A DNA stretch of 35,381 bases from Bacteroidales bacterium (GTDB lineage: Bacteria; Bacteroidota; Bacteroidia; Bacteroidales; ML635J-15). The stretch covers positions 1 through 35,381 of the forward strand of contig JAQUBO010000017.1 in NCBI GenBank assembly GCA_028686735.1, written 5' to 3'. The notes beneath the pieces are model-generated. The model worked only from the letters and a program-made list of their open reading frames with translations. It had not been told where the DNA came from and ran no database searches. The translations under genes were made by a program, and so were the position numbers. This document shows, piece by piece, positions 11,750-29,356 of this stretch. Each line of letters begins with the position of its first letter. The first letter of the stretch is position 1.

Positions 11750-14206
11750 ATGGGACAAATAAAAAATAACGATTTATTTAACATGATACACGGGAATGAT
11801 GAGCAAGACTCTGATATTATTCCAATAGTAACCAATATTTTTAACGACGACGAAAAAGACTTAAAAGTATATCCCAATGATATACCAATATTACCATTAA
11901 GAAACACTGTATTATTTCCAGGCGTTGTTATTCCTCTTACAATAGGACGTGAAGGCTCCTTTAATCTTATTAGAAGCATCCAAAACAACAGCAAGTTGTT
12001 TGGAGCTGTTTCACAAAAAGAAGCCGAAGTCGAAGAGCCAACACCCTCAGACATAAATGAGATTGGAACAATTGCAGAAATATTGAAAGTTATCGAAATG
12101 CCAGATAACACAATATCAGTAATAATTCAAGGAAAAAGACGTTTCAAAATCGAAGAAATAACACAAACAGAGCCTTTTTACAAAGCTAAAGTAAATTATA
12201 TACCTGAAAATAAACAACACGAAAACGATAAGAATTTTCAGGCAATTGTATCTTCATTAAAAGATTTATCTTTAAAAATTGTAAAACTTAGTGCTACAAT
12301 CCCTCACGAAGTATCATTTGCAATAAAAAATATTGATAATTCATTTTTCTTAATCAATTTTATCTGTTCAAATAGCGATATTCTTCCAGCAGACAAGCAA
12401 AAACTACTAGAAATAGGAGACATAAGTGAACGAGCCGTCAAATTATTAGAATATCTGTCAAACCAAGTTCAAATGCTTAAATTAAAGAATGATATTCAAA
12501 TTAAAGTAAAAAAAGAACTTGATAAACAACAAAAAGAGTACTTGTTGCATCAACAAATGAAAACTATTCAACAAGAACTTGGTGGAGGTCCAGCAGAACA
12601 AGAGAAAAAAGAGCTTAAAGAACGTGCATCAAAGAAAAAATGGACAAAAGAAATATCATCGCATTTTGATAAAGAACTTAAGAAACTCGATCACTTAAAC
12701 CCTGCATCGGCAGAGTTTTCGGTTCAAATTAATTATTTACACACAATGCTTGATTTACCATGGAGCGAATACACAAAAGATAACTTTAATTTAAAGAGAG
12801 CTAAAAAAATTCTTAATGAAGACCATTATGGCTTAGATAAAGTTAAAGACCGAATATTAGAACATCTCGCTGTGTTAAAGCTAAAAGGAGACCTCAAATC
12901 ACCTATTTTATGTTTATACGGACCTCCGGGGGTTGGTAAAACATCATTAGGAAAAAGTATTGCAAGAGCTTTAGATAGAAAGTATGTCAGAATGTCACTT
13001 GGTGGTGTGCATGACGAATCTGAAATTAGAGGACATAGAAAAACCTATATTGGAGCTATGCCCGGACGAATTTTGCAAAATATTAGAAAAGCAAAGTCTT
13101 CTAATCCAGTTTTTGTTCTTGATGAAATAGATAAAGTTGGTAACGATTTTAGAGGAGACCCCTCATCAGCACTGCTTGAAGTACTAGATCCAGAACAAAA
13201 CACAGCTTTTCATGATAATTTTCTCGAAGTAGAATACGACTTATCAAAAGTTATGTTTATTGCTACAGCCAATACAATCACTAGCATAAACCCTGCACTT
13301 CGAGATCGTATGGAGCTTATTGATGTTAGTGGTTATATAGTTGAGGAGAAACTTCAAATTGCAAAAAGACATCTTATACCAAAGCAATTTGATAATCATG
13401 GAATAAATAACACTAACATAAAAATTGAAGATAAAGCAATAGTTGAAATTATTGAAGGATATACTCGTGAGTCTGGTGTTAGAGGATTAGATAAAAACAT
13501 TGCCAAACTTTCGCGTCGAATTGCGAAAAAAATAGGACTTAAAGAAGCCCTCCCCGAAACAATTAGCGAAGAGCAAATATATGAATATCTAGGAGTTGCT
13601 CAATTTCAAAAAGAAAAACATATAGACGAAGATATTGCAGGCGTTGTTACAGGATTAGCATGGACTGCAGTTGGAGGTGAAATTCTTTATGTCGAAACTA
13701 GCCTATCAAAAGGTAAAGGTAATTTAACAATTACTGGTAATTTAGGTGATGTAATGAAAGAGTCTGCAAGTATTGCACTCGAATATATTAAATCAAATTC
13801 TGATTACCTCAAAATAGATAATAAAATATTTGAATCATGGAATATTCACCTACACGTACCTGAAGGAGCAATTCCTAAAGACGGACCATCAGCAGGTATT
13901 ACTATGGCAACAGCATTAGCTTCGGCATACACGCAGCGTAAGGTTAAGAAAAACATCGCAATGACAGGTGAAATTACACTACGAGGAAAGGTATTGCCAG
14001 TAGGTGGAATTAAAGAAAAAATACTAGCCGCTAAACGTGCAGGTATAAACGAAATAATACTATCCGAAGATAATAAAAAGGATATCGCAGAAATAAAAAA
14101 CATCTACATTAAAGGCGTAAAATTTAATTATGTTTCAACAATAAAAGACGTGCTTGATATTGCTTTATTAAAACAAAAAGTAAAAGACGCAAAAAAGCTT
14201 GATTAA
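11750..14206 (+). CDS. lon: ATP-dependent protease Lon
   Basis: An 818-residue cytoplasmic AAA+ serine protease that degrades misfolded and regulatory proteins. The N-terminal substrate-binding domain begins at [20 protein letters not shown]. The Walker A motif GPPGVGKT is at 391-398 and Walker B FVLDEID near 455-461. The protease domain has the Ser-Lys dyad: Ser714 in KDGPSAGIT and Lys757 in GGIKEKIL, spaced 43 residues apart as in E. coli Lon. A 40-residue acidic N-terminal extension ([17 protein letters not shown]) precedes the conserved domain and is common in this phylum. It is a single gene; heat-shock control would be expected but no known operator is seen. Followed by a 617-bp non-coding repeat region. 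Confidence 0.97.
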
Positions 14207-14307: not shown

Positions 14308-14386
14308 TTAACGTTTATATTACCTTCAATTTACTGACAGAAATAGAATTGGATTTTTATTCGGCAACGTAAAGTCAAAATTCTAC
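14308..14386 (+). repeat. diverged copy of the short repeat also found at 24501-24583
   Basis: Shares AACGTTTAyATTrCC, CAGAAATA and a closing CAAAATTCTAC with 24501-24583. Its terminal inverted repeat is decayed here (cgtttatattacc against ggcaacgtaaag) but well kept in the other copy. The MITE at 14387 is inserted directly after CAAAATTCTAC. Confidence 0.6.
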
Positions 14387-14675
14387 CCCGCATTATTACT
14401 TTCAGTGAGGGCTAAAGCCGTTCATCGCATTATTCTTGGTTGGTTTATAATGAGTTGTTAGTCAGGGGCTTGACAAGATGTTTGTGGTTTTATTATTAGT
14501 CAAATTTTGAGAAAGCTTACAATTATCTTTGTGCATCTGCTTCGTTGCGAAACTCTTGAACCTTTAGCTCACGAACACCTATAAATATAAAAAAAAATGT
14601 GAGTAAATATAAGGATATATCTGCAAGTTTCGACGCCTACCAGCTACACAAAGCTAATCGTATGAATAATGCGGG
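14387..14675 (-). mobile_element. MITE-like element, copy A (289 bp)
   Basis: Begins CCCGCATTATTAC and ends TAATGCGGG. It is flanked by an exact 4-bp direct repeat CTAC (14383-14386 and 14676-14679), consistent with target duplication. Read in reverse it is collinear with 16502-16826: shared blocks are at 14387-14424 (GTGAGGGCTAAAGCCGTTCA), 14520-14574 (TTGTGCATCT...CCTTTAGCTCACGA) and 14643-14665 (CTACACAAAGCTAATCG). About 21 bp of one terminal repeat is missing compared with copy B. It has no coding capacity, so movement would need a transposase from elsewhere. Confidence 0.75.
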
Positions 14676-14790
14676 CTACTATAAGTTTGAGACGAATCTA
14701 TAAATCTGCGGATTGCGGAATTGGGAATAGATTAGGAGTTCTGAAATTTAACATCACTTTAATTTTATTTAAGTTTTGTAAAAAATTTTA

Positions 14791-14798
14791 TACATTTG
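14791..14798 (+). promoter_or_regulatory. -7 box for pabB-pabC
   Basis: TACATTTG matches TAnnTTTG, 25 nt before the pabB ATG. No properly spaced TTTG -33 element is seen (the nearest TTTG at 14775 is too close). It lies to the right of MITE copy A, so the promoter is not inside the element. Confidence 0.45.
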
Positions 14799-14823
14799 CT
14801 CCCGCTTAACACTAACCTACACT

Positions 14824-15801
14824 ATGAAGTTTATCGACACGGAACAAGTTCGCAAGCAAATTAATAAAGCTTCATCGCAACAAACTCCTTTCTTTTTTGC
14901 CATCAACTACGAAATGTCTGAAGGACTATTTATAGACAATCCACTGAACCAAAGCGAAGCACTTTTTCACTTCAAGGGTATTGCTAACAAATCATCGAAA
15001 CAGGCAGTTCGCCAGAACATAGAATTAACGGTTTACCCAATTGCAAAAGAAGAATATCGTTTAATGTTTGAATTAGCTCAACAAGGTTTAAAAAGCGGCG
15101 AGATTAATGTAATTAATCTTACTGCCCGCACACCAATAAGTACAAATATCAATTGTAGTGAAATGTTTTTTCGTAGTCAGTCGCCATATCGTATTTATGT
15201 TCCAGGCAAATTTATATGTTTTTCGCCAGAGCGTTTCGTTAAAATAGAAAACGGCATAATATCCTCAAATCCAATGAAAGGGACCATTGATGCATCAATA
15301 CCAAATGCAGAACAGGTTGTTTTACACGATTCTAAAGAAATAGCAGAACATACTGCCACGGTACAATTAGTTTCCGAAGAACTTAGCTCTGTCGCTCATA
15401 ATGTAGGTATCAAACGATTTAGATATATCGATCAAATTGAATCGCAAAACAGAACGCTGCTTCAGGTTAGTTCAGAAATTGTTGGGAAATTACCAAATGA
15501 CTATATGTCCCGAATGGGGGATATAATATTTTCACTTTTGCCTGCTGCATCAATCACTGGCTCGCCCAAAACTAAGACAATAGAGTACATAAGTTTGGCA
15601 GAGGTACAGCCAAGAGGTTATTACTGTGGAATTGCTGGATATTTTGATGGCAAAACACTAGATACTACTGTACTTATAAGATTTATAGAAATAGACGGTA
15701 AAAACATGTTCTTTAGAAGCGGAGGAGGTGTAACAATTGACAGCATTTGCGAAAAAGAATATCAAGAAGTTTTAGATAAGATATATCTCCCTATTATATG
15801 A
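14824..15801 (+). CDS. pabB: aminodeoxychorismate synthase component I (chorismate-binding enzyme)
   Basis: A 325-residue chorismate-utilising enzyme of the PabB/TrpE fold that makes 4-amino-4-deoxychorismate for folate synthesis. It is a compact form lacking the long N-terminal domain of E. coli PabB. Family landmarks in order are FSPERFVKIENGIISSNPMKGT, KEIAEHTATVQLVSEELS (the region usually EHxMIVDLxRNDL, more diverged here), VSSEIVGKL, PAASITGSPKTKT (S243-K249), PRGYYCGIAGYF, and FRSGGGVTIDSICEKEYQEVLDK. It overlaps pabC by 4 nt (ATGA), so the two are translationally coupled. The glutamine amidotransferase partner PabA is not in the window. Isochorismate or anthranilate synthase is the main alternative, but pabC next door favours PabB. 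Confidence 0.87.
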   Translation: MKFIDTEQVRKQINKASSQQTPFFFAINYEMSEGLFIDNPLNQSEALFHFKGIANKSSKQAVRQNIELTVYPIAKEEYRLMFELAQQGLKSGEINVINLTARTPISTNINCSEMFFRSQSPYRIYVPGKFICFSPERFVKIENGIISSNPMKGTIDASIPNAEQVVLHDSKEIAEHTATVQLVSEELSSVAHNVGIKRFRYIDQIESQNRTLLQVSSEIVGKLPNDYMSRMGDIIFSLLPAASITGSPKTKTIEYISLAEVQPRGYYCGIAGYFDGKTLDTTVLIRFIEIDGKNMFFRSGGGVTIDSICEKEYQEVLDKIYLPII

Positions 15802-16400
15802 CAGAGCCTATTTTTGTAGAAGTACTAAAGGTAAAAAATGGAACATTTATTGACATTCAAGATCAGCTTGAACGAATTTATCGAACTACATTGCATTTTT
15901 TCTCTAAACCATTAATTGTTAACTTGACAAACAACATTATTCCTATTGATTTGCGGAATAAGTTAGTAAAGTGTAGAATTGTGTATGCCAAAGAAATTAT
16001 TTCTATACATTTTGAAACGTATAAATTACGAAATATCCAAAGCTTGGCCTTAGTAGAGCACAACACTATTGAATACAGCTATAAATACAAAAATCGTGAT
16101 AAAATCAATGAATTATTAAGACAACACAATGAGTGTGATGATATTTTAATAGTGAAGAACTCCCTTGTTACAGATACCTCTTATTCAAATGTCGTTTTTA
16201 AAGATATTGATGGCAAACTTTACACTCCGGCGAGTACTCTATTGGCTGGGACAAAACGACAAAAATTATTGGATACAGGCATTATTTATAAAAAAGAAAT
16301 AAGGATTAATGACATTAAATCTTATGAGGGAGTTTATCTGATAAACGCGATGATAGATATTGAGGACAATGTATTTGTAAACATTGATAATATCAGATAA
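15798..16400 (+). CDS. pabC: aminodeoxychorismate lyase-like, class IV aminotransferase fold
   Basis: A 200-residue PLP enzyme of the class IV aminotransferase fold. It probably releases pyruvate from aminodeoxychorismate to give p-aminobenzoate. The Y-x-Y-K motif near 93-98 (YSYKYKNR) holds the candidate PLP lysine (K96). TDTSYSNVVFKDIDGKLYTP and ASTLLAGTKRQKLLD match the conserved cofactor-binding and TPxxxxLxGTxR motifs. It is shorter than E. coli PabC (about 270 residues) but such compact forms accompany compact PabB in this phylum. Its ATG overlaps the pabB stop. Assignment rests on motifs and on the operon. Confidence 0.82.
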   Translation: MTEPIFVEVLKVKNGTFIDIQDQLERIYRTTLHFFSKPLIVNLTNNIIPIDLRNKLVKCRIVYAKEIISIHFETYKLRNIQSLALVEHNTIEYSYKYKNRDKINELLRQHNECDDILIVKNSLVTDTSYSNVVFKDIDGKLYTPASTLLAGTKRQKLLDTGIIYKKEIRINDIKSYEGVYLINAMIDIEDNVFVNIDNIR

Positions 16401-16501
16401 AATTTAATTAGTGTCTGCAAACAAGTATGCTTCACACGACGAAAAACAAAGTTCAACAATCTTTTTTACTAAGCCTAACAAAGAACGTAAAAATCGAATA
16501 A

Positions 16502-16826
16502 CCCGCATTATTACTTCGTGAAGGCTTCGCCGTTCATGCGATTAGCTTTGTGTAGATACACCTGTGCTGATCCGTTAGCTAACGGAGAAGTAAGGCGCCT
16601 AACTTTGCAGTTATACAAATGTATTTACTCCCTTTGGTCGTGAGCTAAAGGTTCAATAAGTTAGCAACGCAGTAGATGCACAAAGACAATTGCAAGCAGC
16701 ACTAAAATTTGGGTGCATTAATGACTTTTGATAAACAATATAAATGTTTGACAATCTGACATTTACTAACATATTCTACAAAAAACGGTGAACGGCTTTA
16801 GCCCTCACCGAAGGTAATAATGCGGG
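16502..16826 (+). mobile_element. MITE-like element, copy B (325 bp)
   Basis: Both ends carry an imperfect terminal inverted repeat of about 36 bp. Left: CCCGCATTATTAC then TTCGTGAAGGCTTCGCCGTT. Right (reverse complement): CCCGCATTATTAC then CTTCGGTGAGGGCTAAAGCC. The outermost 13 bp are identical. The element is flanked by the 4-bp direct repeat ATAA (16498-16501 and 16827-16830). It is the most complete copy and lies in inverted orientation to copy A, with pabB-pabC between them. No reading frame of note inside. Confidence 0.78.
16571..16586. repeat. perfect 16-bp palindrome inside MITE copy B
   Basis: TCCGTTAGCTAACGGA is its own reverse complement. It is not found in copy A, where the corresponding segment is shorter. 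Confidence 0.6.
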
Positions 16827-17073
16827 ATAAATGCAATATCTTATAAGTATTGATAAATTAATAGCTGATTTTATAAAATAAAAAACACTTATATATAGTG
16901 TCCGCAAAAAAACTATATAACTTCTCAATCTTTTAGGTAATTTAATGTTTCAAGCGAAAAATAGTAATGAAATTACAGTGAATCTAGGTAGTTTTTTAAA
17001 TGGGTTTTTTAATCAAAATAGAAGGATCTGAATACAATAATATTATACAAAAAATAGTCGTTGAGTAGTAAAT

Positions 17074-17236
17074 CCCGTATTATTCTTTTTAGTTTGATTT
17101 GTAAGTTCTACAATTAATAACAAAACAAAGACCAAATAAATTTGGGTGCGGAGAGCACCCAAATTTGCTTACTATAAATAGATTGCCGTCACACTTAAGA
17201 GTAAGCTTTATACCACACAGAAAGTAATAGTGTGGG
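17074..17236. mobile_element. decayed third MITE copy (about 163 bp)
   Basis: The left end CCCGTATTATTC resembles the MITE tip. The right end, read in reverse, is CCC(A)CACTATTACTTTCTGTGTGG followed by TATAAAGC, matching the copy A tip (CCCGCATTATTACTTTCAGTGAGG then GCTAAAGC) at most positions. No target duplication is visible. The middle is replaced by a strong hairpin. Confidence 0.45.
17138..17166. repeat. 12-bp perfect hairpin
   Basis: AAATTTGGGTGC-ggaga-GCACCCAAATTT: 12-bp arms, 5-nt loop, no T-tract, so it is not a classical terminator although it lies between convergent genes. The same 12-mer arm occurs once more in MITE copy B at 16705-16716. Confidence 0.7.
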
Positions 17237-21961: not shown

Positions 21962-22735
21962 CTATTTTTCTTTTTTGTCTTCTTCTTCGGCTTTTGGCTC
22001 TTCAGCTTTTGGCTCTTCAGCTTTTGGTTCTTCGGCTTTTGGCTCTTCTACCTTTGGCTCTTCGGCTTTTGGCTCTTCTACCTTTGGCTCTTCGGCTTTT
22101 GGCTCTTCGGCTTTTGGTTCTTCGGCTTTTGGCTCTTCTACCTTTGGCTTTTCAGCTTTTGGCTCTTCTACCTTTGGCTCTTCTACCTTTGGCTCTTCGG
22201 CTTTTGGCTCTTCGGCTTCAGTTCCTTCAGTTTGCTCAGCATCTTCAGATTCCGCTTCCTTTTTGTCTTCTAGTTCTTGTGCATATTTTTTAGCAATTGC
22301 CTGTGCTCTTTCTTCCTTGATTTTTGTTTCAATCTCAAGTTTATCTTTCAGTTCAGCACGTTCTTTAGCAGAAAGGTCAGAAATTTTTGATGAAATTTTA
22401 TTTTCTTTTTCATCTAACCATGCTTCAAATCTTTTTTCTGCTTCAATCTCACTAAAAGCACCTTTTTTAACTCCTTCTAAGAGATGTTTTTTCATTAAAA
22501 CACCTTTATAAGATAAAATTCTTCTTACAGTGGGAGAAGGTTGTGCACCTTTAATCATCCATTCTAACGCTTTGTCAAAATCCAACTCGATAGTTGCAGG
22601 ATTAGTTATAGGATTATAAGCTCCTATTCTTTCAATGTATTTTCCATCACGTGGAGTTCTACTGTCGGCAACAATAATGTGATAGTAAGGTTTACTTTTG
22701 CGGCCGTGTCTTGCAAGTCTTAATTTAACTGCCAT
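21962..22735 (-). CDS. rpsP: 30S ribosomal protein S16 with long repetitive acidic C-terminal tail
   Basis: A 257-residue S16. The ribosomal core occupies about the first 80 residues (MAVKLRLARHGRKSKPYYHI, ADSRTPRDGKYIERIGAYNP, LEWMIKGAQPSPTVRRILS). A charged helical segment (about 95-165: KRFEAWLDEKENKI, LSAKERAELKDKLEIETKIKEE, QAIAKKYAQELEDKKEAE) follows. The tail is 15 tandem five-residue units EEPK(A/V) and then EEEDKKEK. C-terminal extensions of S16 are common in Bacteroidota, but this perfect-period PKE repeat is unusual. rimM follows after 3 nt. Expression starts from a TATCTTTG promoter with a hairpin at the predicted mRNA 5' end. Confidence 0.95.
   Translation of the reverse strand: MAVKLRLARHGRKSKPYYHIIVADSRTPRDGKYIERIGAYNPITNPATIELDFDKALEWMIKGAQPSPTVRRILSYKGVLMKKHLLEGVKKGAFSEIEAEKRFEAWLDEKENKISSKISDLSAKERAELKDKLEIETKIKEERAQAIAKKYAQELEDKKEAESEDAEQTEGTEAEEPKAEEPKVEEPKVEEPKAEKPKVEEPKAEEPKAEEPKAEEPKVEEPKAEEPKVEEPKAEEPKAEEPKAEEPKAEEEDKKEK
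21989..22213 (-). repeat. 15-bp tandem repeat x15 in the rpsP tail
   Basis: Fifteen in-frame 15-nt units encode (E)(E/K)PK(A/V). On the plus strand the unit reads like ttcggcttttggctc, with a ttctacctttggctc variant (Ala versus Val codons). Units are nearly identical at DNA level, so copy number may vary by slippage. Because the unit is a multiple of three, the other frames are also open across it. Confidence 0.9.
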
Positions 22736-24803: not shown

Positions 24804-25000
24804 ACTGTAATATTTTTCTTAGTACATGACAAAAATTATTAATCAATTATAAACTAAGCTCTTATTAACAATTCATCAATAATAAACAATGCTAAAATCC
24901 TTGCATAAAACTCTCCCATTCAGAACGTTAGGTGTTTTTCTATTTTTGGTTATAAACCCAAAGGAATAAGGGTAAAATAAAACTTTTGCTCACAAGTATT

Positions 25001-25047
25001 GGTTTTCGAGTAACTCGAAAACCAGATTGTGGTCGAACTCGAAAACC
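25001..25047. repeat. hairpin with extra arm copy
   Basis: GGTTTTCGAGT-a-ACTCGAAAACC at 25001-25023 is a perfect 11-bp inverted repeat. A second ACTCGAAAACC follows at 25037-25047 after 13 nt. Two alternative pairings are possible. It lies just before the Y1 transposase relic. Confidence 0.65.
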
Positions 25048-25069
25048 TCAATTAACACCAAAAATTAAG

Positions 25070-25174
25070 TATATAGAAAATCAAAAAGAGCATCATAAAA
25101 AAACTAGTTTTCGAGAAAAATATCTTAAGTTCTTAAAAGAATATGAAGTTGATTTTGATGAACGATATATCTTT
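25070..25174 (+). pseudogene. IS200-like Y1 (REP-associated tyrosine-type) transposase, C-terminal relic
   Basis: The frame contains YIENQKEHHKKTSFREKYLK and FLKEYEVDFDERYIF. This is the typical C-terminal end of IS200-like Y1 transposases and RAYT proteins (IxNQxEHHKKxSFxxEYxxxLxxxxxxxDERYxW). The HUH motif and catalytic Tyr region are missing. The open frame around it (24986-25273) includes repeat DNA on both sides and is not a gene. Confidence 0.75.
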
Positions 25175-25206
25175 AAATCGAGTGAGCAGTTGTTTCAATT
25201 CCAGTT

Positions 25207-25347
25207 GTTTATGCCCTACGGGCAAAATTTTCTAATGAGTATGTTTTTATTGACATATATGTCCGCTAACTAGCGGACAAAAGAAACCGTTTTCAAATCT
25301 AAAACTTTAGCACACAATTGTTATTTTGTAGTCCGTAGGACATAAAC
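25207..25347. repeat. cluster of three REP-like short hairpins
   Basis: GTTTATG-CCC-tac-GGGC (25207-25223) and, inverted, GTCC-gta-GGAC-ATAAAC (25331-25347) are the same element; the two base differences are compensatory and keep the stem. Between them GTCCGCTA-ac-TAGCGGAC (25261-25278) is an 8-bp hairpin. A conserved flank plus small stem next to a Y1 transposase relic recalls REP elements. Confidence 0.6.
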
Positions 25348-25745: not shown

Positions 25746-25988
25746 ATGAAAAAGGAAATTAAAGTATTAGGTACTGGTTGCCCAAAATGTAAACAATTAG
25801 AAAAAGTAGTAAGAACAGTTGTTGAGGAAAACTCAATTGATGCAGAAATAACAAAGATCGAAGACATAGTTGAAATCATGAATTATGGTATCATGACAAC
25901 ACCCGCACTTATAATTGACGGAAAAATTGTGTTAAAAGGTTATGTTCCAAGCCAAGAAGAAGTCTTAACAAAAATAAATGAATCATAA
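25746..25988 (+). CDS. arsE: small thioredoxin-like protein, ArsE-like
   Basis: An 80-residue redox protein of the small thioredoxin-like family with a CxxC active site (C12-P-K-C15 in GTGCPKCKQLEK) and the cis-Pro region MTTPALIIDGKIVLKG. In arsEFG clusters a protein of this type acts with ArsF in reducing aromatic arsenicals; it could also recycle ArsC. It is the first gene of the operon, directly after the operator region, and ends one base before the arsR start at 25990. The family is clear; the arsE name rests on gene order with arsF and arsG. Confidence 0.75.
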   Translation: MKKEIKVLGTGCPKCKQLEKVVRTVVEENSIDAEITKIEDIVEIMNYGIMTTPALIIDGKIVLKGYVPSQEEVLTKINES

Positions 25989-25989
25989 T

Positions 25990-26307
25990 ATGGCCAATAA
26001 AGTAAAACTTCCTGAAGACATAAAACTATTAGCTGCATATTCAAAAGCACTAAGTCACCCGACTCGATTGTATATTCTTAAAAAACTTTCGGAAATGAAT
26101 GCATGTTGTTATAGTGGCGATTTAGTTGATGAAGTTCCAGTTGGACGCTCAACACTTTCTCAACATCTAAAAGAATTAAAATACTCAGGTTTAATTCAGG
26201 GCGAAACAGAACCTCCTTATATTAAATATTGCCTTAATCGCGAAAACTGGGAAAAAGCAAAACAGCTTTATGCTGAATTATTTCAAATTAATCAAAACAA
26301 CAAATAA
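25990..26307 (+). CDS. arsR: ArsR/SmtB-family metalloregulator
   Basis: A 105-residue winged-helix repressor that should leave its operator when bound by As(III) or a similar metalloid. It shows KALSHPTRLYILKKLSE, then NACCYSGDLVDEVP and the recognition helix VGRSTLSQHLKELKYSGLI. Adjacent cysteines C39-C40 and C81 (KYCLN) are candidate ligands, an arrangement unlike the E. coli ELCVCDL box. The start at 25990, one base after the arsE stop, is preferred. An in-frame ATG at 25978 would overlap arsE by 11 nt and add four residues. Placed second in the operon, giving autoregulation. Confidence 0.93.
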   Translation: MANKVKLPEDIKLLAAYSKALSHPTRLYILKKLSEMNACCYSGDLVDEVPVGRSTLSQHLKELKYSGLIQGETEPPYIKYCLNRENWEKAKQLYAELFQINQNNK

Positions 26308-26324
26308 ATTTTAAACTATAAATT

Positions 26325-26732
26325 ATGAAAAATTTAATTTCTGTAACACTGATAATTATTTCAGTATTTTCTCTCGCAGGATGTAAAAATAATTCTGACA
26401 AAAAAACAGATTCCATTGAGGAGTCAAAAGTTATGGTTTATTATTTTCATGGAGAACAGCGTTGTCCGACCTGTATTGCTGTTGGCGAAGTTTCGCAAGA
26501 GACTGTAAAAGCCGAGTTTGGAGAGAATGAAGATGTTACTTTTAAGGACGTTGATTTCTCTACTGAAGATGGAGAACCAATTAGCGACAAATACGAAATC
26601 GCTAGTAGCAGTTTATTAATTGTAAGCGGCGAAAACATTGTTGATGTAACTGACGATGCTTTTGCATTTGCAAGAAATGACCCTGATAAACTGAAGAAAA
26701 TAATTATTGATCAAATAAACAAAATGTTGTAA
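26325..26732 (+). CDS. arsF: ArsF-like thioredoxin-fold lipoprotein
   Basis: A 135-residue lipoprotein. The signal is at 1-19 with lipobox SLAGC (Cys20), followed by a polar linker and a thioredoxin-like domain starting KVMVYYFHGEQRCPTCIAVG with a C47-P-T-C50 pair. Proteins of this type next to ArsG-type permeases are the ArsF component implicated in reduction of nitro- or pentavalent aromatic arsenicals. The lipid anchor would place it on the periplasmic side, so it may hand reduced substrate to, or take electrons through, the ArsG membrane protein. 17 nt after arsR, 10 nt before arsG. Function inferred from family and order. Confidence 0.75.
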   Translation: MKNLISVTLIIISVFSLAGCKNNSDKKTDSIEESKVMVYYFHGEQRCPTCIAVGEVSQETVKAEFGENEDVTFKDVDFSTEDGEPISDKYEIASSSLLIVSGENIVDVTDDAFAFARNDPDKLKKIIIDQINKML

Positions 26733-26742
26733 ACTTCTATAT

Positions 26743-27456
26743 ATGGAATTCTTACATAATCTTGCCAATAATACAGAATTTCCTCTAATAACAGCATTTA
26801 TCCTAGGACTTATGACAGCTATTAGCCCATGCCCTTTGGCTACGAATATCTCTGCAATTGGATTTATAAGTAAAGATTTGCAAGACAGAAAGCGTGTGTT
26901 TATCAACGGTTTGATTTATACTTTAGGCCGTACAATTGCCTACACTGTTTTAGGAATAATTTTGATTGCGATAATTCGCGAAGGATCAAGCGTATTTAAA
27001 ATTCAAAAAGCTATTAATAACTATGGAGAATATTTTCTCGGTCCAGTTTTAATTTTAATCGGACTCTTTATGCTAGATTTTATTCAGATAAAGTTCAAGC
27101 TATTCTCTAAATTCTTCTCACGAGTTGAAGACAAATCAAAATCGGGAAGCACTTGGGTCTCCTTAATGTTAGGTTTTGTTTTTGCATTAGCATTTTGTCC
27201 TTACAGTGGGGTCCTTTATTTCGGAGCTCTGATTCCATTGTCCGTAACATCATCTGGTGGATATTTCTTGCCTGTAGTTTTTGCAATTGCAACAGGTTTA
27301 CCAGTAATTGTATTTGCTTGGATTCTTGCATTTAGCTTATCTAGTGTTGGAAAATTCTATAACCGTCTTAAGAATTTCGAGATATGGTTTAGACGTGTTG
27401 TTGCAGTAATATTCATACTAGTTGGGATTTATTATATGTGGTTATTTTACTTTTAA
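26743..27456 (+). CDS. arsG: ArsG-type permease (CcdA/DsbD-like)
   Basis: A 237-residue inner-membrane protein with about six membrane segments and the CcdA/DsbD-type duplicated Cys-Pro motifs: ISPCPLATNISAIGF (C30) and AFCPYSGVLYFGALIPL (C152). In DsbD/CcdA such cysteines carry electrons across the membrane; in ArsG they are associated with efflux of trivalent aromatic arsenicals. The preceding CxxC lipoprotein (arsF) and cytoplasmic CxxC protein (arsE) would fit either an efflux or an electron-relay scheme. It is followed by a 101-bp gap containing an inverted repeat before the next gene. Confidence 0.8.
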   Translation: MEFLHNLANNTEFPLITAFILGLMTAISPCPLATNISAIGFISKDLQDRKRVFINGLIYTLGRTIAYTVLGIILIAIIREGSSVFKIQKAINNYGEYFLGPVLILIGLFMLDFIQIKFKLFSKFFSRVEDKSKSGSTWVSLMLGFVFALAFCPYSGVLYFGALIPLSVTSSGGYFLPVVFAIATGLPVIVFAWILAFSLSSVGKFYNRLKNFEIWFRRVVAVIFILVGIYYMWLFYF

Positions 27457-27482
27457 AGTACAGATTAAATTCTAATACGTAA

Positions 27483-27515
27483 GATAATAAAAGTAAATCC
27501 GTTTCTTTTATTATC
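27483..27515. promoter_or_regulatory. 11-bp inverted repeat between arsG and the permease gene
   Basis: GATAATAAAAG (27483-27493) and CTTTTATTATC (27505-27515) are perfect complements around an 11-nt loop, and AAA/TTT in the loop can extend pairing. It may be an mRNA processing or attenuation element separating the two halves of the operon. It lacks a trailing T-tract. Confidence 0.5.
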
Positions 27516-27557
27516 AATGAAATACAGTCGATTTAAACATTAAAAATATTTGAAATA

Positions 27558-28901
27558 ATGGAAACTAAAAAAGAAATAAAAATACTGATTTGGATAGGTC
27601 TTATTTTTGGTGCAGCCTTTTTCCTCCCTATCGAAAGTGCCAGATTTATGACAGCAATTGATGCTACTTTAGATCTTGTAAAATGGTATGCTCGTGAACA
27701 CGTAATATTGTGTTTATTACCAGCATTTTTTATCGCAGGGGTGATATCTATTTTTGTTAGTCAAGGCTCTGTACTAAAGTATTTTGGGGCTAATGCAAAA
27801 AAATGGCTAGCATATTCAGTTGCAGCAGTTTCAGGAACAATTTTGGCGGTTTGTTCTTGTACAATTTTACCTCTATTCTCAAGTATTCACAAACGTGGTG
27901 CAGGATTAGGACCAGCAGTGGCATTTTTATACTCTGGACCGGCAATAAATATTTTAGCAATTATTTTAACTGCTCGTATTCTTGGATTCGAGATGGGAGT
28001 TGCTAGAGTTATTGGAGCAGTTTCTTTCAGTGTAATTATTGGGGGCTTAATGTCATTAATTTATCGAAAAGAGGAAAAAGTAAAACGAGAAGAGCAAATG
28101 CACATCACTCCGCCACCAGAAAAAAGACCAATGTGGCAAACTTCGTTTCATTTCTTTATCTTGATATTAATTTTAGTATTTGCAAACTGGGGAGCACCTT
28201 CTGCTGGAGACACTTCAAGTACTTGGTATTATCTCTGGTTTTATAAATGGCAAATAACTTCATTCTTTGGTTTAGGTTTGGTTTTTTCTTTAATCTATAT
28301 TTTAAAAATCAAATGGCAATGGGTTCTTGCAGCAGTTTTAGCAACTGGACTAGCAGCATTTTTATCCTATACTTTTATTGAAGATGCTAAAATAGCACCT
28401 CTTGTACCTGTTCTTGTCGGAATCGCTGGATTAAGCATAATTACCTTATTAGACAAACGTGACCCAGATAATAAAGAGTGGACATTAGCATCTTGGGGAT
28501 TTGCGAAACAAATACTTCCCTTACTTTTAATTGGTGTAATTACAGCTGGTTTCTTACTCGGATCAACACACGACGGACAAACAATTGCAGGAGTTATTCC
28601 TAATGAATGGATATCGAATCTCGTTGGTGGAAATAGCATTTTCTCGAATTTCTTTGCTTCTATTGTTGGAGCATTTATGTACTTCGCAACTTTAACAGAA
28701 GTTCCAATCTTACAAGGTTTAATAGCAGCTGGTATGGGGAAAGGTCCTGCACTTGCGTTATTATTGGCAGGGCCATCATTATCCTTACCTAATATGTTGG
28801 TAATTAGAGGTGTCATGGGAACTCAAAAAACTATTGTATATATTGTGTTGGTGGTAATAATGGCAACTATTTCAGGGCTAATTTATGGTGGATTGTTTTA
28901 A
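27558..28901 (+). CDS. ArsP-like permease (UPF0718 / ArsP_1 family)
   Basis: A 447-residue inner-membrane permease with about ten membrane segments. The family signature is clear: VCSCTILPLFSSIHKRGAG (C99-S-C101), then GPAVAFLYSGPAINILAIIL, and in the second half TEVPILQGLIAAGMGKGPAL and LAGPSLSLPNMLVIRGVMG, an internal repeat. Relatives export trivalent organoarsenicals (ArsP) or act in other metal efflux. With ArsG next to it, a role in arsenical efflux is likely; the substrate is inferred. A charged cytoplasmic loop (YRKEEKVKREEQ) separates the halves. arsC follows after 38 nt. Confidence 0.85.
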   Translation: METKKEIKILIWIGLIFGAAFFLPIESARFMTAIDATLDLVKWYAREHVILCLLPAFFIAGVISIFVSQGSVLKYFGANAKKWLAYSVAAVSGTILAVCSCTILPLFSSIHKRGAGLGPAVAFLYSGPAINILAIILTARILGFEMGVARVIGAVSFSVIIGGLMSLIYRKEEKVKREEQMHITPPPEKRPMWQTSFHFFILILILVFANWGAPSAGDTSSTWYYLWFYKWQITSFFGLGLVFSLIYILKIKWQWVLAAVLATGLAAFLSYTFIEDAKIAPLVPVLVGIAGLSIITLLDKRDPDNKEWTLASWGFAKQILPLLLIGVITAGFLLGSTHDGQTIAGVIPNEWISNLVGGNSIFSNFFASIVGAFMYFATLTEVPILQGLIAAGMGKGPALALLLAGPSLSLPNMLVIRGVMGTQKTIVYIVLVVIMATISGLIYGGLF

Positions 28902-28939
28902 AAAATGACAAGTTACCATAGTCAAGTAAAACTAAAAAT

Positions 28940-29356
28940 ATGAAAATTCTAATTCTATGTACAGGGAACTCATGTCGATCACAGATGGCACATGGTTTTC
29001 TAAAATACTTTGATGAAAATCTATATGTTCGTTCAGCAGGAACAGAGGCAAGTGGAAAACTTAATCCTGGAGCTGTTGAAGCCATGAAAGAAATCGGAAT
29101 TGATATTTCTCACCACTCATCCGATTCTGTAGATATATTTTTGAATGATGAATGGGATTACGTTATAACCGTTTGTGGTGGAGCAAATGAAGTTTGTCCA
29201 GCATTTATTGGCAAAGTAAAGAACCGTTTGCATATTGGTTTTGATGACCCATCACATGCGGTTGGAAGCGATGATTTTATTAAATCTGAGTTCGTGAGAG
29301 TTCGTGATGAGATTAAAGAAGAGTTTTGGAAACTTTATGTAGAGAAGTTTAAATAA
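28940..29356 (+). CDS. arsC: arsenate reductase, low-molecular-weight phosphatase type
   Basis: A 138-residue thioredoxin-coupled arsenate reductase that converts As(V) to As(III) in the cytoplasm. The P-loop is C7-TGNSC-R13. The redox pair C79 and C86 (VITVCGGANEVCP) is spaced 7 residues, as in Bacillus subtilis ArsC (Cys82/Cys89), and DDPSHA provides the Asp-Pro of the phosphatase fold. All catalytic residues are present. It is the last gene of the operon and is convergent with the giant T9SS gene, 31 bp away; no clear terminator lies between them. Confidence 0.95.
   Translation: MKILILCTGNSCRSQMAHGFLKYFDENLYVRSAGTEASGKLNPGAVEAMKEIGIDISHHSSDSVDIFLNDEWDYVITVCGGANEVCPAFIGKVKNRLHIGFDDPSHAVGSDDFIKSEFVRVRDEIKEEFWKLYVEKFK

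Follow-up and report, generated by a model that had tools for sequence, protein, structure and literature searches.

The two inverted, non-coding repeats that bracket the pabB-pabC pair (herein copies A and B) are, in our assessment, very likely independent insertions of one MITE family that was probably moved in trans by an IS1380-family transposase. They lie in a stretch of 35,381 nucleotides from a Bacteroidales bacterium (contig JAQUBO010000017.1), called the window below. The features of the locus are as follows.

14383..14386, unstranded: CTAC, the left target duplicate of copy A; exact match to 14676-14679
14387..14675, minus: copy A of the MITE (289 bp; subfamily A), with a one-ended module; from tips and own-genome matches
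14398..14422, plus: 25-bp double-hairpin module, left tip of copy A; read from the sequence
14676..14679, unstranded: CTAC, the right target duplicate of copy A
14824..15801, plus: pabB (aminodeoxychorismate synthase component I), start 148 bp past copy A; ORF and family match
15798..16400, plus: class IV aminotransferase, likely pabC, end 101 bp ahead of copy B; ORF and family match
16498..16501, unstranded: ATAA, the left target duplicate of copy B
16502..16826, plus: copy B of the MITE (325 bp; subfamily B), with a module in each end; from tips and own-genome matches
16513..16534, plus: 22-bp module, left tip of copy B
16791..16815, minus: 25-bp double-hairpin module, right tip of copy B
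16827..16830, unstranded: ATAA, the right target duplicate of copy B
17074..17236, unstranded: possible older relative, tips CCCGTATTATT / CCCACACTATTACTTTC, non-matching flanks AAAT and TTAT; from weak local scores

An earlier note on this DNA had described two inverted, related copies, and its coordinates are exact. The tips CCCGCATTATT / AATAATGCGGG that it assigned to both copies are found at 14387 and 14665 (copy A) and at 16502 and 16816 (copy B), and each copy has its own exact 4-bp direct repeat (CTAC for A; ATAA for B). Neither copy contains an ORF of 90 aa or more, as expected from the claimed lack of coding capacity. The imperfect terminal repeats of ∼36 bp reported for copy B are real and consist of an 11-bp tip followed by a module of 22 to 25 bp; that copy A carries the module in one end only had been missed. 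In inverted orientation A and B share four similar blocks, with identities of 81% over 77 nt, 91% over 44 nt, 72% over 43 nt, and 96% over 23 nt, and their best local alignment has 148 identities, 28 mismatches, and 31 gaps. Copy A lies between pabB and a lon-like gene (named from its own sequence) that ends at 14206. The folate pair placed between the copies holds for pabB; its partner is a class IV aminotransferase that, from position and family, is likely pabC. The possible older relative gives local scores of 34 with copy A and 29 with copy B, compared with 17 to 21 for shuffled sequence of different length.

The proposal of a 2.4-kb composite-like block is not supported by the flanks. Transposition as a block would put one shared 4-mer outside A and outside B, the single outer duplication of a composite transposon; the outer 4-mers are instead CTAC and ATAA, and each copy keeps its own matching pair. 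A single inversion through A/B recombination would exchange the flanks on the inner sides and destroy both matching pairs; both are intact, which argues against a net single inversion since the insertions. Recombination is conceivable between two inverted copies that resemble each other in part along much of their length. A composite unit of A, B, and pabBC, whether mobile as one block or flipped by such recombination, is highly improbable in view of these flanks and of a longest ungapped similarity (the 77-nt block at 81%) that is a poor substrate for homologous recombination. Inversions that are even in number, or confined to some cells, would be compatible with the flanks. The A/B layout is explained by two separate insertions.

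Other features of the window were recorded. Ribosomal protein S16 (21962-22735, minus; NCBIfam NF011094) has a long EEPK/VEEPK repeat tail. An ArsR-type regulator, an SO_0444/SaoE-like permease, and an arsenate-reductase-like protein (the latter two below cut-off) follow one another at 25978-29356 (plus) and may perhaps form a metal- or arsenic-stress operon. A 95-aa ORF at 24986-25273 (plus), without matches in Pfam and NCBIfam, contains YIENQKEHHKK, which resembles YIKNQKEHH, a motif of TnpA (Y1) subclass 1.2 in the accessible portion of PMC6006769; the ORF is perhaps a truncated relic of a Y1 transposase.

Copies of the family in the same genome

Searches of the source genome (4.25 Mb, 404 contigs, 95% complete, 7% contaminated) gave 51 match rows with copy B as the query and 46 with copy A, both of which include pieces of single copies and A/B cross-matches. 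The tagged tip YTARCCCGCATTATT (YTAR-flanked) occurs 71 times in this genome and its reversed control pattern 0 times. Tips 150 to 700 bp apart, with no more than two mismatches per tip, were paired in the stretches fetched from the genome, and pairs failing both duplication and tips were removed. The resulting 41 pairs, less two that overlap others (L030 3386-3714 and L058 948-1578), represent 39 complete copies of 219 to 405 bp in 39 distinct flanks; truncated copies exist besides. Omitting the filter adds 17 pairs, none of which was accepted as a copy, because they use pseudo-tips in the interior, a tip that arose by chance, or the possible older relative (17074). One arm motif divides the copies into subfamilies A (12 copies) and B (27 copies).

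An exact 4-bp duplication flanks 33 of the 39 complete copies. All 33 are NTAN and most are YTAR (TTAA, 12; TTAG, 8; CTAA, 6; ATAA, 3; TTAT, 3; CTAC, 1); control 4-mers moved outward by 4, 8, 12, 16, and 20 bp match in 0, 1, 2, 0, and 0 of 39 copies, respectively. The duplications of the other six copies (L011, L013, L020, L040, L059, and L062) are mismatched, which may come from copies being mixed during assembly. The elements are thus MITEs by description: short, multicopy, and transposase-free, with terminal inverted repeats and a target duplication of fixed length. The genome-wide check put forward in the earlier note, which held that absence of other copies, or variable ends without 4-bp repeats, would speak against a transposable element, has therefore turned up many copies with constant ends and 4-bp duplications.

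Placement was assessed with mechanically called ORFs. ORFs are overlapped by 2 of 39 copies at an ORF cut-off of 80 aa and by 0 of 39 at 120 aa. Convergent ORFs flank 12 of 34 copies as against 5 of 54 other gaps of the same stretches (both neighbours known, 80 aa), and 11 of 34 as against 2 of 30 at the 120-aa cut-off. Folding of the 39 whole elements gives z values from -2.6 to -15.5 (40 shuffles each). With 50 nt trimmed from each side the median is -0.15 (minimum -12.7; strong cores are kept in some copies), so that most of the folding is accounted for by the terminal repeats; a structured RNA was rejected on this loss of signal. No Rfam family matches the window at gathering scores.

Smaller elements were seen alongside these copies. 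A 45-bp mini-element, CCCACATTATT...TTAATGTGGG, with TTAA on both sides, occupies L030 3386-3430, 15 bp from a B copy. Within the interior of subfamily B, positions 16572-16585 of the window form the hairpin CCGTTAGCTAACGG; the same place reads CCGTCAGCTGACGG in L009-L011, and a longer hairpin is found at the equivalent place in L030, L038, and L040. This is perhaps a second modular site.

IS1380 elements of relatives and the probable mobilizing transposase

Tagged tips are present in 16 of 149 genomes, the source genome included (G083, 80; source genome, 71; G029, 32; G096, 25; G024, 8; one to three in each of the remaining eleven). The reversed control tip has one match in each of 7 of the 149, so single tip matches may be due to chance. 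Short elements with the same tips and TTAA-type duplications occur in G083, G096, G100, and G026, with interiors largely unlike A and B; G029 contains clear relatives of copy A (193 identities, 16 mismatches, 46 gaps).

Of 393 genomes of the order, 102 have a match to the IS1380 transposase profile PF13701, 57 of them above cut-off. YTAR-flanked tips were counted at IS1380-transposase loci with a degenerate tip composed after L158 and the MITEs had been seen, allowing up to two mismatches; 17 of 31 loci carry them (24 tips), compared with one match for the reversed pattern and one at 27 unrelated loci. Eight distinct IS1380 elements have both tips (L165 repeats L158). Three of the eight have an exact duplication, TTAA/TTAA in each case, and the other five are without an exact pair. 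L158 (1795 bp) has tips that differ from the MITE tip at 3 of 14 positions, each tip of L172 (1623 bp) is 1 of 14 off, and L175 (1570 bp) has one tip identical over 14 bp and a transposase interrupted by stops. The transposases of L158 and L172 score 338 and 317 bits on the NCBIfam IS1380 model (NF033539; cut-off 180).

PF01609 and PF13701 profile searches of the incomplete assembly of the source genome found no autonomous element with MITE tips. Its sole IS1380-like gene, L084 (C315; 177 bits, just below cut-off), was rejected as the partner because its tips, CCCAATTAATGCAG, differ. The seven PF01609 loci were rejected as well, none having a YTAR-flanked CCCGCATTATT tip; L085 is IS1634-like. 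At L075 a B-type tip is followed by an ORF that we read as lipoprotein-like, and no second tip precedes the contig end. The description of A and B as a non-autonomous transposon is supported. Full-length elements that have similar tips and encode a transposase exist in relatives, and none turned up in these searches of the source genome.

IS701 likewise uses YTAR targets. The mobilizer could thus belong to another DDE family with 4-bp, TA-centered targets (for example IS701, or a relative of IS1634/IS4), the likeness to IS1380 tips being convergent, and our wide search covered the IS1380 family alone, with PF01609 searched in the source genome alone. Such an origin is nonetheless improbable given the tips at 17 of 31 IS1380 loci versus 1 of 27 control loci and the lack of YTAR-flanked CCCGCATTATT tips at the seven PF01609 loci. 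Under the preferred reading the mover is probably an IS1380-family transposase, which would act in trans and cut at CCCGCATTATT tips; the cut MITE would then join YTAR targets, most often TTAA, which become duplicated. With dozens of copies in one genome and same-tip MITEs in several relatives, the IS1380-type MITE family is well supported.

The end module within and outside the MITEs

In some MITE ends, 22 to 25 extra bases separate the 11-bp tip from the CA (or TA) that comes next. This module is absent from 17 of the 39 complete copies, on the left only in 10, on the right only in 6, and at both ends in 6, and exact duplications are found in 15/17, 8/10, 4/6, and 6/6 of these, respectively. 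As duplications are still exact whether the module sits directly behind the tip at one end, at both, or at neither, the outermost ∼11 bp alone are probably the essential end. The six of six exact duplications around copies with both modules suggest that long ends, too, seem transposition-competent, unless modules arrived after insertion; such late arrival is disfavored by module types that are constant per arm. Near-identical cores differ in module state: L058, L054, and L056 (support 97/97) have none, right, and both, whereas L010, B, L011, and L009 (support 100/99) have left, both, left, and right. Copies that differ by a precise hairpin module make end recognition by the transposase testable with natural variants.

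Short ends are probably ancestral, and modules would have been inserted later, one type per arm, and then inherited and reassorted among MITE copies. The reverse history, in which the ∼36-bp end came first and was repeatedly shortened by deletion across a hairpin between TT repeats, is possible, though we doubt it. It would fit the TT common to the deletion ends, the confinement of each module type to its own arm, and the frequent changes of state (at least 3 left and 3 right on the A tree; at least 7 left and 5 right on the B tree, few forks being supported). However, ATT is joined straight to CA in most of the IS1380 elements and relatives' MITEs that were read (not, for instance, in L107 of G100 or at one of the two ends in the copies of G024), G029 has 32 tips and zero module matches, and deletion leaves unexplained the 52 module places outside MITE-like tips in five other genomes.

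The module consensus, ACCTTCGGTGAGGGCTTCGCCGTT, is readable as two mini-hairpins, ACC-TTC-GGT and GGC-TTC-GCC. A previous pattern, CCCGCATTATTN{20,50}GCCGTTCA, had 0 matches owing to wrong spacing. The strict core, GTGAGGGCTN{2,3}GCCGTTCA, occurs in 8 of 149 genomes including the source genome (39 matches there), with 0 control matches in any, and in 2 of 395 genomes drawn from the class, again including the source. A second pattern, allowing one mismatch and applied to ten chosen genomes, matches 27 times in the source genome, 22 in G067, 19 in G133, 17 in G047, 3 in G024, once each in G092, G096, and G110, and never in G029 and G714 (controls 0). G714, which belongs to a different order within the class, has the module core inside a longer repeat present in eight copies (L225-L232), most ending in CATCCCAGCCGCAC.

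Loci read from other genomes comprise 55 module rows, of which 3 are in MITE-like tips and 52 elsewhere (G024, G047, G067, G096, and G133). The 52 fall into 21 flank groups (joined at 20 or more of 30 like flank letters; random pairs 0/3000); module places are hence partly non-independent, yet the contexts are many. Taking one place per group, the left flank ends in ATT in 16 and in TTT in 5, and the right flank starts with C in 16 of 21, against a background of 16% C after (A/T)TT in the same DNA. This TT and C may be the target or part of the module. In the first hairpin, the third base pair was read in 42 rows outside CCCGCATTA-type tips (one place counted twice; two rows within MITE-like ends of another type) and is C-G in 32, T-A in 7, T-G in 3, and C-A never (Fisher P = 4e-6, uncorrected for kinship, so that the pattern may stem from few events). 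In L266 and L208 of G067, modules alternate with another small palindrome, CGACCGCAGGTCG, and with short tandem units such as CGTGTAATT and GTCAATT.

The module hairpins are weak as single DNA strands (z of -2.09, -0.14, and 0.63 for three end types); a strong hairpin was rejected, as just one of the three outfolds most shuffles. A target duplication at the module is not claimed: the flank-repeat score is 1.08, against a mean of 0.56 and a maximum of 1.06 in shuffles, but tandem arrays contribute to it. The module pattern has 0 matches in viral contigs, and 13- to 15-letter strings of it were not found in a literature text search.

We tentatively suggest that ACCTTCGGTGAGGGCTTCGCCGTT and its variants could be a bacterial double-hairpin micro-element of ∼24 bp, spreading by itself into (A/T)TT^C sites, including the tips of IS1380-type MITEs behind the 11 bp needed by the transposase, and carried along by MITE transposition. 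Dispersal and precise presence or absence are what point to its mobility. As small dispersed palindromes, modules might instead be REP-like and spread by an IS200-type tyrosine transposase (RAYT), which we consider unlikely. One Y1 transposase ORF of G024 begins ∼95 bp past a one-mismatch module match, and atypical structures adjoin TnpA subclass 2.6 genes of Bacteroidetes (PMC6006769, accessible portion). Yet, in the stretches read around 27 Y1_Tnp loci, a module was present at only 1, G133 combines 19 module matches with just one Y1 hit, a weak one, and the module of G092 occurs alongside zero Y1 hits. If the micro-element reading is true, one transposable element is nested in the end of another.

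Comparison with known systems

An IS1380-type MITE family is of a known kind; the modular end is unusual. No IS1380-type MITE of Bacteroidetes was found in print by a literature search outside which most subscription journals lay. Like the MITEs, the IS1380 family (NCBIfam NF033539, PF13701) has CCYGMATTATTCAT-like tips, YTAR targets, and a 4-bp duplication (exact in 3 of 8 elements); unlike it, the MITEs are transposase-free, have only the ∼11 to 14 terminal bases in common with it, and in many cases carry a module inside the end. In the portions of the sources available, the Porphyromonas gingivalis MITEs BrickBuilt and MITE239/464/700, with IS5-type ends (PMC4596501), and the IS982-type Cardinium MITE (PMC9769881) are likewise non-coding and multicopy with ends resembling a full IS, but belong to other IS families with other tips, and no end module that is present or absent is described there.

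The piggyBac superfamily resembles the MITEs in its TTAA-type 4-bp duplication and CCC-starting tips, and IS1380 transposases form the outgroup of a piggyBac tree (PMC10813416, as far as its accessible text goes); piggyBac is eukaryotic, and the likeness is one of tips and duplication. The module has a counterpart in form in REP/REPIN elements with RAYT, which are dispersed palindromes of 20 to 40 bp (PMC6006769, available part), but is without a consistent RAYT neighbor (1 of 27 loci). It also resembles the mitochondrial double-hairpin elements, GC clusters, and RHE, tiny repeated intergenic units of one or two hairpins (PMC2800124, from the part accessible). Those are organellar and the module is bacterial, and the likeness is in form, with mobility of the module itself a matter of inference; if it is mobile, the module would be a bacterial counterpart of the mitochondrial double-hairpin elements.
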